Shown: one piece after another, positions 7,000-11,025 of the stretch | Layout of the letters: each line of letters opens with the position of its first letter | Position numbering within the stretch: position 1 is the stretch's first letter | IMG/VR virus record: IMGVR_UViG_3300042549_002343 | Coordinates: 1 to 34,838 of that record | Source: a virus | Reading direction: 5' to 3' (one strand) | Length of the DNA: 34,838 nt | Notes under the pieces: generated by a model | Database searches by the model: none | Told to the model about the DNA's origin: nothing | Seen by the model: the letters and a program-made list of their open reading frames with translations, nothing else | Position numbers and translations under genes: made by a program

Positions 7000-7001
7000 T
7001 T

Positions 7002-7289
7002 ATGTACAAAGTAAAAGGAAAAATCACCCAAATCGGTGAAGTAGTATCAGGCTTATCAAAAGCAGGTAAAGAATGGAACAAGTCAGAGTTTGTAATTGAA
7101 ACACTTGACCCTAAATACCCTAAATTAATTTGTTTTACATTGATGAAACAAGACCAGTTGCAGAACCACAAAGTAGGTGGTGAAGTAGAAGTAGAATTTA
7201 GTGTGGATAGTAGAGAATTTAATGGCAAGTGGTATCATAACATCAATGCTATTAGTTTGAGCAAAGCATTTGAATCTTTACCATTTTAA
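7002..7289 (+). CDS. DUF3127-type ssDNA-binding-like protein
   Basis: A 95-residue OB-fold-like protein. The pattern is 'G.....KEW.K.EFVIET.DPKYP..ICF....D......VG.EVEV.F...SREFNGKWY.NI.A', typical of DUF3127 proteins of Bacteroidetes and their phages, which stand in for single-stranded DNA-binding proteins. It starts 3 bp after the exonuclease gene, completing an erf-exonuclease-SSB trio. It lacks the acidic C-terminal tail of cellular SSB and ends SLPF. The ssDNA-binding role is inferred from family and context. Confidence 0.8.
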   Translation: MYKVKGKITQIGEVVSGLSKAGKEWNKSEFVIETLDPKYPKLICFTLMKQDQLQNHKVGGEVEVEFSVDSREFNGKWYHNINAISLSKAFESLPF

Positions 7290-7296
7290 TTTAAAC

Positions 7297-7323
7297 AGCA
7301 GGGCAGTTAATCGCTGCCTTGCT
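7297..7323 (+). terminator. Strong intergenic hairpin, possible attenuator
   Basis: AGCAGGGCAG (7297-7306) pairs with CTGCCTTGCT (7314-7323) around a 7-nt loop, with one G-T wobble in ten pairs. It lies directly after the ssDNA-binding gene and 13 bp before the next ATG. No T tract follows, so it may be a processing, stability or pausing element instead of a full terminator. Confidence 0.55.
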
Positions 7324-7336
7324 TAACCAAAAAACT

Positions 7337-7531
7337 ATGACAGTATTAGACTTAATTGAAATTTTAGAAGATATGCAGCACGATTTACAAGTTATGTATA
7401 AAGTTACTGCAAACTCAAATGGAATGATAACTTTTGCAGCCATAGAAGATGTTAGCGAAGTTACAACACACGAAACTAACCAAACATTTGTATTACTTGA
7501 AACAAGGTTTAAGCATAATAATTTAAACTAA
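7337..7531 (+). CDS. Hypothetical protein
   Basis: A 64-residue product starting MTVLDLIEILEDMQHDLQVM; the ATG at 7337 is preferred over an in-frame TTG at 7319, which lies inside the hairpin. It has a helix-strand pattern with an acidic helix first and beta strands after (ITFAAIEDVSEV, TFVLLETRF). The layout resembles short phage proteins of the 'LTVGELIEELQ..D.DA.V' type, which have no known activity. It sits between the ssDNA-binding protein and ninG. Confidence 0.7.
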   Translation: MTVLDLIEILEDMQHDLQVMYKVTANSNGMITFAAIEDVSEVTTHETNQTFVLLETRFKHNNLN

Positions 7532-7532
7532 T

Positions 7533-8048
7533 ATGAAAGAAAAGAAGTGCAAAGTTTGTCAGGTAATGTTTACTCCTTATAAATCAACACAAGTAGTTTG
7601 TACTCCTAAATGTGCGATTGAATTAGCATTTAGTAAACCAGTAAAAAGTAATATTTTAAAACTTGAAAAGAAAGTAAAGCTACAAAAGTTAAAGACATAT
7701 ACTCAAAGAGTAAACGAGGTGAAGGTTATATTTCAAAGGTGGATACGAATGAGAGACAAAGATTCACCTTGTATCAGTTGTGGCATAAAAGAAACTAAAC
7801 TTTGGGATGGTGGTCACTACAAGAAAGCAGAGTTATATCGTGGTGTAATATTTCACGAATTAAACGTACATAAGCAGTGCAGGAAGTGTAACACATATTT
7901 AAACGGAAATGAAAGCAATTATAGGCAAGGATTAGTAAATAGAATAGGTGAGCAAAAAGTAAAAGACTTGGAACTATTAGCAGAAGAAACAAGAGTATAC
8001 AAGTGGACAGAATTAGAATTAGAATTTTTAAAAATAAAATACAAATAA
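7533..8048 (+). CDS. ninG: NinG/Rap-like recombination protein
   Basis: A 171-residue NinG (lambda Rap) homolog, a structure-specific nuclease that acts on D-loops and Holliday-type junctions. The N-terminal zinc finger has CKVC at 6-9 with C23 and C27. A basic helical linker follows, then a second zinc/HNH-like site: C80 and C83 (SPCISC), GGHY at 93-96, CRKC at 116-119 and NGNESNY at 124-130. Order and length match NinG. It belongs to the recombination cluster and is expected to support replication-coupled recombination. Confidence 0.88.
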   Translation: MKEKKCKVCQVMFTPYKSTQVVCTPKCAIELAFSKPVKSNILKLEKKVKLQKLKTYTQRVNEVKVIFQRWIRMRDKDSPCISCGIKETKLWDGGHYKKAELYRGVIFHELNVHKQCRKCNTYLNGNESNYRQGLVNRIGEQKVKDLELLAEETRVYKWTELELEFLKIKYK

Positions 8049-8051
8049 CAA

Positions 8052-8495
8052 ATGGAAAAACAAGAAATAATCAGCAAAATAATATTTGAAGCAGAAAGAA
8101 AAATAAAGCAGAACACTGGCATAGTAGTAAGTTTATTTTGCAAGAGCAAAGAAGTAAACAGCGACAATGAATTAGCACGAATAATAGTAAAGCTATGTGC
8201 AGATGAATACGGAATTCCAATTGAAACATTAATCGCTACAACACGACATAGGCTACAATGCGAGGCAAGGCAAGTATCAATGAAGATAGTTCGTGAAAAC
8301 ACCACGTTATCTTTAAAAGAAATAGGTGAGTTGTATATGGCTAAAAAAAAAGGCTGTGTACCTGAACTTGGCAAAGACCATACAACAGTAATACACGGAA
8401 TCAAAACAGTTGATAGTTTATTAAGCTATGACAAGTTGGTAATAAATAAGTACAACAAAATACTTACTGACTTTAATAAAATAATAAATTGTTAA
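8052..8495 (+). CDS. Stand-alone DnaA domain IV-like replication initiator
   Basis: The 147-residue protein has no ATPase domain but ends in a DnaA domain IV-like helix-turn-helix. ATTRHRLQCEARQVSMKIV (about 62-80), TTLSLKEIGELY (84-95) and the signature GKDHTTVIHGIKTV (107-120) line up with the DnaA box-reading motif 'GRDHTTVLHA'. It probably binds DnaA-like boxes, either to start phage replication or to redirect the host initiator. It is followed by a host-type promoter and structured RNA, and then by the two other replication genes. The initiator role is inferred; the domain assignment is strong. Confidence 0.8.
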   Translation: MEKQEIISKIIFEAERKIKQNTGIVVSLFCKSKEVNSDNELARIIVKLCADEYGIPIETLIATTRHRLQCEARQVSMKIVRENTTLSLKEIGELYMAKKKGCVPELGKDHTTVIHGIKTVDSLLSYDKLVINKYNKILTDFNKIINC

Positions 8496-8505
8496 CATCT
8501 TGTGT

Positions 8506-8534
8506 TTTGAAATGAAATAATATATTTATATTTG
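8506..8534 (+). promoter_or_regulatory. Strong Bacteroidetes-type promoter
   Basis: TTTG (8506-8509) and TATATTTG (8527-8534, perfect TAnnTTTG) are separated by 17 nt, the host vegetative promoter layout. Transcription should start near 8540, just ahead of the structured RNA at 8540-8645 and upstream of the genes from 8684. It is the best match to the host consensus noticed in the window. Confidence 0.75.
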
Positions 8535-8539
8535 CAAGA

Positions 8540-8645
8540 GTTGAATGAGGTTGTAGCCATTCACATTCCTAATTTTAATTTTCCAAAAGTTAAATATAAA
8601 GGAACAAGCCACAGTTAGCTACAACCTAATCTGTGGCTTTTCCAT
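8540..8645 (+). ncRNA. Structured leader or small RNA with pseudoknot potential
   Basis: This stretch has no frame longer than a few codons. It begins just after a strong promoter and contains two perfectly paired elements. AGGTTGTAGC (8548-8557) is complementary to GCTACAACCT (8618-8627), and AAGCCACAG (8606-8614) to CTGTGGCTT (8631-8639). The second arm of the first helix lies in the loop of the second hairpin, so the two helices form an H-type pseudoknot or exclude one another. The 3' hairpin leads into TTTT. It may be an independent small RNA or an attenuator controlling the replication genes from 8684. Confidence 0.6.
8606..8641 (+). terminator. Terminator-like hairpin ending the structured RNA
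   Basis: A 9-bp perfect stem (8606-8614 with 8631-8639), 16-nt loop and four Ts (8638-8641). The T run is short, but Bacteroidetes terminators often have weak U tracts. If the loop pairs with 8548-8557, formation or strength of this hairpin may change, which is how an attenuator would work. Confidence 0.5.
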
Positions 8646-8683
8646 TTTAATAGTTTACTGGTATCTAACAACCTTTACAAATT

Positions 8684-8920
8684 ATGGTAAAAAAAATATT
8701 TACTTCATCAAGTAATTATGAAGCAAATGGTGCTTTAAAAATTGGAAACCCATTAAACTCTATGGGTGGAAAAAGTAAAACTGAAATTTCAATAGCTTTT
8801 TTTAAAAGTGAAACTGAAAAATTTCCTGAATCATTTATTTTTTTAGACAAATCAACTGCAATTAGTTTTGTTAATGAACTAAAAAGAGAAATTGCTAAAC
8901 TATCTAACGACCCTTTTTAA
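8684..8920 (+). CDS. Hypothetical protein of the replication operon
   Basis: A 78-residue product starting MVKKIFTSSSNYEANGALKI, with Gly/Ser-rich NPLNSMGGKSKTEISIAFF at about 23-41 and a helical end (VNELKREIAKLSNDPF). The pattern suggests a small mixed fold with an acidic helix. It is the first gene after the structured RNA leader and is followed 3 bp later by the DUF6291-like gene, so it is likely in the same transcript. No function is recognised. Confidence 0.7.
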   Translation: MVKKIFTSSSNYEANGALKIGNPLNSMGGKSKTEISIAFFKSETEKFPESFIFLDKSTAISFVNELKREIAKLSNDPF

Positions 8921-8922
8921 TT

Positions 8923-9555
8923 ATGGCTGAAAATAAAAAAGGTTTTTTGCTATATGCAGATTATGAAGAATTATTTGATGAGTTAGAAGATGTAATAGCA
9001 GGTAAATTAATTAAGCATATACTTAAATATGTAAATGATAAACAACCTACTACTGAAAACCCTATTGTAAATGTTGCATTTATTCCTATCAAAAGACAAC
9101 TTAAAAGAGATTTAGAAAAGTATGAAGGTAAACGTGAACAATGGTCAGATGCAGGTAAAAAAAGTGCTGAAGCAAGAAGACTTAAAAAAGAACAAGAGTT
9201 AACGGAATTAACGAACGTTGAAATCGTTGCAACGGAATTAACTGTTAATGATAATGTAAATGTAAAAGATATACATAAGGATTTTAATTTTGATTTATTT
9301 TTAAATTGGTTTAATAAAACTACAAATAGAAATTTTAAATCAATACCTGAAGCTACTAAAAAAAGTTTTAAGGCACGAATAAAAGAAGGGTACACAAAAG
9401 AAGATATTTGCAAAGCAGTAATAAATTGCAGTAAAGATAAGTTTCATATTGAAAACCCTAAATACTTAACACCTGAATTTATATCACGTGCGGATAAATT
9501 AGCACTATACTTATCTGCACCAACTGAAACCAAGACTAAAATAATTATTTACTAA
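8923..9555 (+). CDS. DUF6291/Phg_2220_C-like replication protein
   Basis: A 210-residue protein with two parts. Residues 1-75 (GFLLYADYEELFDEL, then VAFIPIKRQLKRDLEKYE) match the DUF6291-type N-terminal module of Bacteroidetes phage replication proteins. A basic, helical linker at about 76-110 is low in complexity. The C-terminal part at about 120-200 (FNWFNKTTNRNFKS-like, ending YLTPEFISRADKLALYL) fits the Phg_2220_C/DnaD-like domain, which helps load a replicative helicase. The next gene overlaps by 1 bp and encodes a RecA/DnaB-type ATPase, which supports a helicase-loader role by context. Confidence 0.72.
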   Translation: MAENKKGFLLYADYEELFDELEDVIAGKLIKHILKYVNDKQPTTENPIVNVAFIPIKRQLKRDLEKYEGKREQWSDAGKKSAEARRLKKEQELTELTNVEIVATELTVNDNVNVKDIHKDFNFDLFLNWFNKTTNRNFKSIPEATKKSFKARIKEGYTKEDICKAVINCSKDKFHIENPKYLTPEFISRADKLALYLSAPTETKTKIIIY

Positions 9556-10526
9556 TGGCTACTATAAAAAGATTATTTGATGTAAATGATAAAATATTAC
9601 ATTTAAGAGAAAATAGTTCAGATGAATTATTAGATACTGGGTTTCAAACTTTAAATCCTTTATACCGAGTAAAACCTGTTGGCACAACAATTATTTATGG
9701 TTACCCTAAAATGGGTAAAACAGAGTTCTTATTTCAATTGCTAATATCATTAAGTGTTAAGTATGGCAGAAAACATTTAATATACAGCCCTGAAAGTGGT
9801 TCAAGTGAGGATATTTATGCTGCTATTATACACGGATTAACAGGTAAAACATTTGATAAGCGATACCATAACTACATAAGTGAAGCAGAATACTACCGAG
9901 TGCAACCATTCGTGCAGGAACATTTTATAGTTGCTGAAGATACTGATGAGAAAGGTTTAAATTTTGATGAGTACATAAAATTAGTAAAGGATTGCAAAAA
10001 AGATTATGGTATTCACACAAGCACAATAGATAATTGGAATGATATTGAACACGAAAATTATACTAATGTTTCAGATTATTTAAAAAGAAAACTACCAAAG
10101 TGGAATAAACTTGCAGCAAGTCAAAAAATACATTCATTCTTAATATGCCACGCAAAGAACCCAATAGGAATAAAGAACGGAGAACTACCAAAAGCACCTA
10201 CACCTTATGAAATTGATGGTGGTGCTGCTTGGATTCAGAAAGCATATAATATGATTTGTATAAATAGAGAGTACATAGAAACAAATGGCAAGATGCAATT
10301 AGGAAATGAAGTTGATATAATAATACAAAAAGTAAAACCAAGAATAGTTGGTAACACAGGAATTTGCAAACTTGATTATGATTGGATAAAAAAATGTTAT
10401 AGCGAAACAATTGATGGCAGAATAAATGTTATTGATACTGGCTTTAAAGAAAAATACAAAGCACCTGCAAAAGAAATACAATCAACAATAAATTTAGAAA
10501 ACCCTTTTGACACAGCACCTTTTTAA
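9555..10526 (+). CDS. RecA/DnaB-type ATPase, putative replicative helicase
   Basis: A 323-residue P-loop ATPase. Walker A is GYPKMGKT at 49-56; an acidic residue follows the next strand at SPES (78-81, E80); the Walker B strand ends in STIDNWND (D159); and a SFLICHAKNP strand near 195-204 carries the sensor-like His. This is the RecA/DnaB core without the DnaB N-terminal domain, common in small phages as a helicase or recombination ATPase. The C-terminal tail (ENPFDTAPF) resembles acidic tails that bind partner proteins. It follows the helicase-loader-like gene with a TAATG junction. Confidence 0.8.
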   Translation: MATIKRLFDVNDKILHLRENSSDELLDTGFQTLNPLYRVKPVGTTIIYGYPKMGKTEFLFQLLISLSVKYGRKHLIYSPESGSSEDIYAAIIHGLTGKTFDKRYHNYISEAEYYRVQPFVQEHFIVAEDTDEKGLNFDEYIKLVKDCKKDYGIHTSTIDNWNDIEHENYTNVSDYLKRKLPKWNKLAASQKIHSFLICHAKNPIGIKNGELPKAPTPYEIDGGAAWIQKAYNMICINREYIETNGKMQLGNEVDIIIQKVKPRIVGNTGICKLDYDWIKKCYSETIDGRINVIDTGFKEKYKAPAKEIQSTINLENPFDTAPF

Positions 10527-10640
10527 ATGGAATTAGCAATAAAATTTGGCAAATACATAATGAGCCTAACAAATGAACAAAGAGAATACTCAACAGTTGA
10601 ACAACTTTATAAAATATTTATGACCTATGAACGAACTTAA
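10527..10640 (+). CDS. Small hypothetical protein (37 aa)
   Basis: A 37-residue frame, MELAIKFGKYIMSLTNEQ at the start and YKIFMTYERT at the end. Its ATG directly follows the helicase stop, and its end overlaps the next gene by 14 bp. It would be a small helical protein of unknown role; packing is the main support. Confidence 0.45.
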   Translation: MELAIKFGKYIMSLTNEQREYSTVEQLYKIFMTYERT

Positions 10641-11025
10641 ACAATTCCAAGATGAGCAGCAAAAGTTAAACGAACTGCGCACAAACGACTATAAAAAGTT
10701 AAAAGAAATAATGAATGACTATTGTGGTTTTACAAATCTAATGACACAACGTGAGCCTAATTATATTAATCTATGGCATTTAACATCGTTTATAGAAGAC
10801 TTTGAGTTAAAGGTGATACAAAGTATAGGTGAAAGGAAAATAACCGCAGAAAAGCACCTTAAAACACTTTACTTAATCCAACAGCAATACGGCAAGTATT
10901 ATTTTGAGAGCATAATCTATCGCCAAAAGGTGCAAGAACTTGAAACAAACCAAATAATATTTAGTGAAAAAATCAGACAATTAGAAAGTGAAATAAAATT
11001 ATTAAACAACTTAAAAGAATTTTAG
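10627..11025 (+). CDS. Coiled-coil hypothetical protein
   Basis: A 132-residue, almost entirely helical protein with two coiled-coil-like regions (about 1-30 and 95-130) around a middle that contains WHLTSFIEDFELKV. It lacks any enzymatic motif. The position between the helicase and a PP-loop enzyme gives little guidance. It could be a structural adaptor or a nucleic-acid-binding helical bundle; unrecognised. Confidence 0.7.
   Translation: MNELKQFQDEQQKLNELRTNDYKKLKEIMNDYCGFTNLMTQREPNYINLWHLTSFIEDFELKVIQSIGERKITAEKHLKTLYLIQQQYGKYYFESIIYRQKVQELETNQIIFSEKIRQLESEIKLLNNLKEF

Follow-up and report, generated by a model that had tools for sequence, protein, structure and literature searches.

The window, as the whole stretch of DNA analysed is called here (1–34,838), is a single IMG/VR virus record and carries phage recombination and replication genes, among them NinG, a gene with a DnaA C-terminal domain and DUF6291. 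The gap between the end of the DnaA-like gene (8495) and the start of a 78-aa ORF (8684) is occupied by a leader whose features are collected in Table 1; when the entire window was scanned on both strands for kissing hairpins this leader, at 8542–8639, was the single match. For the 78-aa ORF, neither Pfam nor PHROGs provided a family at a cut-off of E 0.001. A protein of 70–83 aa with an "LDKSTAIKF..ELKR"-like C-terminus, represented in the window by this ORF, is often found between the leader and DUF6291 (L009, L063, L067, L082, L110, L125 and L220).

Table 1. Coordinates of the leader elements and neighbouring genes in the window
Feature	Position	Strand	Details and basis
Gene with DnaA C-terminal DNA-binding domain, upstream of the leader	8052–8495	+	PF08299, E 5e-14
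Predicted promoter	8506–8534	+	TTTG 8506–8509, 17-nt spacer, -7 box TATATTTG 8527–8534; from sequence
Hairpin H1	8542–8563	+	stem 8542–8547/8558–8563 (TGAATG/CATTCA); 10-nt loop 8548–8557 holds the kissing sequence
Kissing contact	8548–8627	+	core of 7 bp, 8550–8556 with 8619–8625; up to 10 bp, 8548–8557 with 8618–8627; covariation in 18 relatives
Predicted middle hairpin, A+U-rich	8566–8604	+	8566–8570/8600–8604 and 8574–8582/8586–8594; minimum free energy fold, conservation
Hairpin H2, terminator-like	8606–8639	+	lower stem 8606–8614/8631–8639; upper 4-bp stem 8615–8618/8626–8629; 7-nt loop 8619–8625
Interrupted U-tract following H2, where the short RNA is predicted to end	8640–8648	+	sequence; continuous T runs in distant relatives
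78-aa ORF, first gene downstream of the leader	8684–8920	+	similar small protein 3' of the leader in several relatives
DUF6291 and Phg_2220_C replication protein	8923–9555	+	PF19808, E 6.8e-21; PF09524, E 4e-9

The promoter, described in an earlier note on this DNA as a near-perfect host promoter, is an exact match to the Bacteroidota type (TTG-N17-TATATTTG), one of two plus-strand matches to TTG, N16–22, TAnnTTTG in the window, and the TTTG end of its -7 box is preserved across 18 aligned relatives. A promoter of the sigma-70 type was rejected, the scan of 7000–11000 being unremarkable (14 sites vs 19.4 expected). Since the flavobacterial transcriptome described in PMC9723704 places TAnnTTTG at -12 to -5, the +1 of the leader is predicted to lie near 8539.

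The segment 8540–8650 folds with -27.5 kcal/mol (z -4.13, none of 200 shuffles being as good) and 8539–8643 with z -3.61 (one of 200 shuffles at least as good). The 10-bp helix 8548–8557/8618–8627 and the 9-bp helix 8606–8614/8631–8639 reported in the earlier note are both perfectly complementary, and the 3' strand of the first does lie within the loop of the second. However, 8548–8557 is itself the loop of a hairpin that had been missed, H1, so that its contact with the loop of H2 is a loop–loop (kissing) contact and not the H-type pseudoknot envisaged there; the switch between two states of the two helices is likewise rejected, because the stem of H1, the 7-bp kiss core and the upper stem of H2 are mutually compatible, can coexist and have all undergone compensatory changes. 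The last hairpin, H2, is among the three terminator-like sites found in 4 kb (1.4 expected), and the T-tract behind it, TTTTCCATTTT, is interrupted. The region of the middle hairpin contains a conserved linker, TTAATTTTCCAAAAGTTAAATATA.

Compensatory changes in the kissing fold

Loci were collected through searches with the DUF6291 protein, the linker and the DnaA-like protein. The DnaA-like gene was matched 61 times in the loci examined and, after exclusion of two matches that stop short of the gene end and of one with too little sequence, the kissing pair was present in 58 of 58 assessable loci having this gene upstream, loci that overlap and amount to 25 distinct ones in one count. When 18 distinct RNAs of close relatives were aligned, 97.6% of the cells were paired, with 38 double-change cells as compared to a shuffled mean of 10.6 (none of 500 shuffles being as high) and a covariation score of 0.406 vs 0.077 or less for slid controls. 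Of the five measures, two stand out less: the pairs changed on both sides, 7 in number, were equalled or exceeded in 25 of 500 shuffles, and the 14 further pair types in 194 of 500. In all 18 sequences the kiss keeps its seven core pairs, two outer pairs failing in 2 and 5 of them, respectively, and the H1 stem is 100% paired with both-side changes in two of its six pairs. The 7-nt loop of H2 occurs in nine versions, each of which is matched by H1, and RNAalifold, run without a supplied structure, returned the kiss as its consensus. The compensating changes in homologues, which the earlier note had named as a check, are found decisively in the kiss and in the stems, and the two-hairpin kissing fold can be regarded as well supported by covariation.

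Over 231 pairs from 22 sequences, the kiss 7-mer diverges by 0.318 per site and the DnaA-like gene by 0.270 at its third codon positions, no clear excess although each change of the kiss takes two mutations; recombination is visible, and diversifying selection is not claimed.

Distant relatives and placement before operons

Upstream of DUF6291 in diverse phage contigs, 49 of 109 distinct regions score at least 20 with the kissing finder, as opposed to none of 327 dinucleotide shuffles (with a cruder finder used earlier, 23 of 52 regions vs 4 of 260 shuffles); the 60 regions lacking a match may perhaps be explained in part by the frequent presence of another gene ahead of DUF6291 in the operon. 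Because complementarity is built into the finder, a separate test was made without this requirement, in which the first 36 nt past the -7 box were compared with the loop of the terminator. Among the 107 regions considered, 32 lacked a -7 box at the expected distance, a further 19 had the box and no terminator and 56 had both; in the 50 distinct members of the last class the loops of the same leader displayed a complementarity of at least 6 bases in 43, of at least 7 in 35 and of at least 8 in 22, the corresponding figures for swapped pairs being 10.6%, 3.5% and 1.3%. In 18 distant leaders belonging to one subgroup, nearly all drawn from matches of the finder and hence preselected for complementarity, 92.7% of the cells are paired and 100 double-change cells (29.5 in shuffles) are distributed over the kiss and both stems of H2. 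Most distant members have continuous, strong T runs after H2.

The kissing leader is present in the cultured Cellulophaga phage phi13:2, Flavobacterium phage 11b, elemoC, tooticki, filifjonk and FCL-2 (Muminvirus, Elemovirus and Ficleduovirus being among the groups); it was not seen in Riemerella CRP19 (L127) or in the metagenome-assembled contig L121. The host genomes of one phylum contain DUF6291 in 3 of 296 cases and, considering these three loci together with Riemerella CRP19, a kissing leader was found only in L257. Direct DNA similarity of the window to named phages or plasmids yielded nothing useful. Bacteroides phage C3_41T2LP (L259:1480–1640) has, where its DnaA-like gene ends, 36 nt that are 89% like the promoter region of the window and are followed by no kissing leader. 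Distant phages (L008, L207, L213, L063, L038, L036, tooticki, elemoC and phi13:2) have similar kiss sequences around TCTCAC/GTGAGA, the strands in tooticki and elemoC being exchanged between the two hairpins. An internal loop of H2 beneath the kissing loop, with AGUA opposite GAA, which we take to resemble the loop-E/sarcin–ricin motif and which is a possible site of protein or tertiary contact, occurs in L018, L021, L044, L049, L050, L123, L128, L190, L197, L198, L210 and L213.

A scan of 1,644,582 bases on both strands gave 100 distinct matches scoring at least 22; 83 have a -7 box, one mismatch being allowed, no more than 26 nt away, and the 17 without it show the background of the finder. 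A promoter-requiring scan of six records (the first 50,000 bases in the case of two) gave further matches of 18.5–19.7 that were treated as background, shuffled copies yielding three in all. In the 83 leaders H1 starts at a median position of +2 (10–90% range, -2 to +4), and in the 79 followed by an ORF the end of H2 precedes the ATG by a median of 19 nt (12 to 44). Between H1 and the ATG, five of the 83 leaders have an exact -7 box and the other 78 have none, which leaves little room for a second promoter and makes the gene dependent on read-through; judged by consensus, the order promoter, terminator, gene without its own promoter, the general layout of an attenuator, recurs in these leaders, five of the 83 having the internal box. 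The first genes after the leaders include those for DUF6291, the small "LDKSTAIKF"-like protein, an endonuclease, RNase H-like, ParB-like and ERF proteins, names without a database match being based on a reading of the sequences. Seven loci have two leaders, in several cases at different operons of the same phage, and the longest cross-complement is 3–5 nt in 13 of 14 cross-comparisons. The remaining one has 8 nt, between the H1 loop of one leader and the H2 loop of the other (L058, 560–648 and 4044–4142), with possible cross-talk. The contig to which both L013 and L080 belong, from a close relative of the window, has a second and different kissing leader before another ORF (L080:3674–3766, minus strand), whereas the window has one. 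Comparison of these genomes thus establishes the kissing fold, its fixed site between promoter and first ATG and its recurrence at several operons.

A candidate attenuator and competing readings

The earlier note had proposed a small RNA, an attenuator or a ligand-sensing leader controlling the DUF6291-like and helicase genes. The best reading is indeed a leader or small RNA that is structured and in control of the replication genes; its fold is backed by the compensating changes, and we infer the control itself, together with transcription, termination, regulation and the direction of control (kiss = OFF). The kissing RNA is probably a switch for the replication genes, and we incline, by a modest degree, towards a promoter-proximal transcription attenuator, locked by the kiss, that would gate early DNA-metabolism operons and release an RNA of ~100 nt. 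RNA polymerase would start near 8539 and H1 would form at the extreme 5' end of the RNA; ~60 nt later H2 would emerge and its 7-nt loop would be captured by the loop of H1 to yield a compact, kissing-locked terminator hairpin. Most transcripts would end in the U-tract, with release of an RNA of about 105 nt, and only the polymerases passing H2 would transcribe the replication operon (the 78-aa gene, the DUF6291 initiator-like gene and the helicase-like gene). The kiss would either set or respond to the switch, and the lock might be opened by a phage factor or modulated in trans by copies of the RNA itself.

Compensation has preserved the core of the kiss along with the stems of both hairpins, which indicates that the locked fold is the selected state, and it is presumably termination that this fold favors. 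Evidence against an attenuator is that the U-tract is interrupted in the window's own group, that no alternative (antiterminator) pairing was identified for the leader and that 60 of the 109 DUF6291 regions lack a match. Since the kiss and the H2 stem can form together, the kiss may do no more than stabilise a small RNA. Such an RNA, ~100 nt long and acting in trans, would be closed and protected by the kiss between 5' hairpin and 3' terminator and would hit host or phage targets through its linker or freed loops, the neighboring gene being incidental. The possession of its own promoter, a terminator-like end and a 5' terminal hairpin is what such an RNA would have, and in the window's group the linker is conserved while the first downstream gene varies; on the other hand, linkers differ among groups, and both the location of H2 at a median of 19 nt before the ATG, with rarely a promoter between, and the recurrence at several operons of one phage fit cis control better. 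We regard a free trans-acting RNA as a rather unlikely, if serious, candidate, attenuation being preferred over it because the order promoter–H1–H2–ATG is fixed, another promoter is rare and the genes are read mainly past H2.

It is less probable still that the leader senses a factor, either a ligand or a protein of phage or host origin, which on binding to the folded core would open or close the terminator. Unpaired sequences recurrent within subgroups do flank the kiss, such as AGUA...GAA in the internal loop of H2 (e.g., L018, L123, L197 and L210), A(C)NNATA at the end of the H1 loop and AUGAAG...CGGAU, but the groups do not all share an invariant core, neither a ligand nor a protein emerged as a candidate and no Rfam riboswitch matches. 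An element like put of phage HK022, whose RNA, once bound to RNA polymerase, renders the enzyme resistant to downstream terminators, would agree with a promoter-proximal, two-hairpin RNA at several early operons of one phage; yet here the second hairpin is itself terminator-like and is located at the gene start, and the sequences are not conserved as would be expected of a polymerase-binding surface, so that this explanation appears very improbable. A type III toxin–antitoxin RNA was set aside, the genes that follow being replication, recombination or nuclease genes.

An extension of the attenuator, to which we give little credence, is that the kiss is a self-recognition code acting also between molecules, the loops of the terminated RNA made from every genome copy pairing with nascent leaders of the same phage in such a way that the terminated share would report copy number and gate replication. 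Were this so, the attenuation product would be its own antisense regulator, and an in-step change of the paired loops would make a phage, or its second operon, deaf to its relatives.

Relation to known regulatory RNAs

With the covariance models of Rfam 15, neither the window nor 13 relatives nor six further loci gave a match at the gathering score, one unrelated tRNA excepted, so that a known RNA family was discarded; the weak matches over the leader are at chance level (e.g., MicC, 15.4 bits, E 6.7). The 28 phage-linked candidate RNAs of PMC8040213 are placed in its supplement. Searches of the open-access literature found no text on DUF6291 or on such a kissing leader, and the layout in which a 5' terminal hairpin pairs, loop to loop, with a terminator-like hairpin of its own transcript was not found described there.

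Partial likenesses exist with several systems. HK022 put is a two-hairpin RNA located, like the leader, just past early phage promoters, but it has neither kissing loops nor a terminator of its own. RNA I and RNA II of ColE1 have fully complementary 7-nt loops that change rapidly by paired mutation, a trait shared with the leader; unlike the latter, they are two molecules transcribed from opposite strands and have no terminator. The c4 antisense RNA, also of phage origin, likewise shows covariation of its short pairing segments among relatives, but its targets are separate sites and what it controls is an antirepressor. It is named for phages P1/P7 (Rfam RF01695) in Table 1 of PMC2864571, and the leader has no Rfam match. 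An antisense countertranscript of the pT181/pIP501 type was discarded, since antisense -7 boxes show no enrichment (with about 0.21 expected per leader, they occur in 7 of 83 leaders) and 8542–8760 of the window contains no antisense promoter.

The element offers a concrete and testable RNA at the replication operons of Bacteroidota phages, whose gene control is poorly known, and it occurs in cultured phages (Muminvirus, Ficleduovirus and others). Its loop codes are freely changeable and mostly orthogonal and, if the loops set termination, would constitute a ready family of orthogonal attenuators. The gene attenuated in pT181 is the plasmid replication initiator, and, as in pT181 and pIP501, a terminator is here predicted in the leader of a replication initiator gene; as in kissing-loop RNAs, two hairpin loops are paired with compensatory changes. 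The account of the pT181-type attenuator in PMC4878617 includes a leader terminator, a 5' hairpin that engages in kissing through its loop and interior loops below the kissing loop, all features resembling those of our leader, for which the terminator is a prediction; there, however, the partner is a separate antisense RNA. By analogy, the kissing leader would work most like a pT181-type attenuator whose kissing partner, the loop of the terminator, resides in the same RNA.
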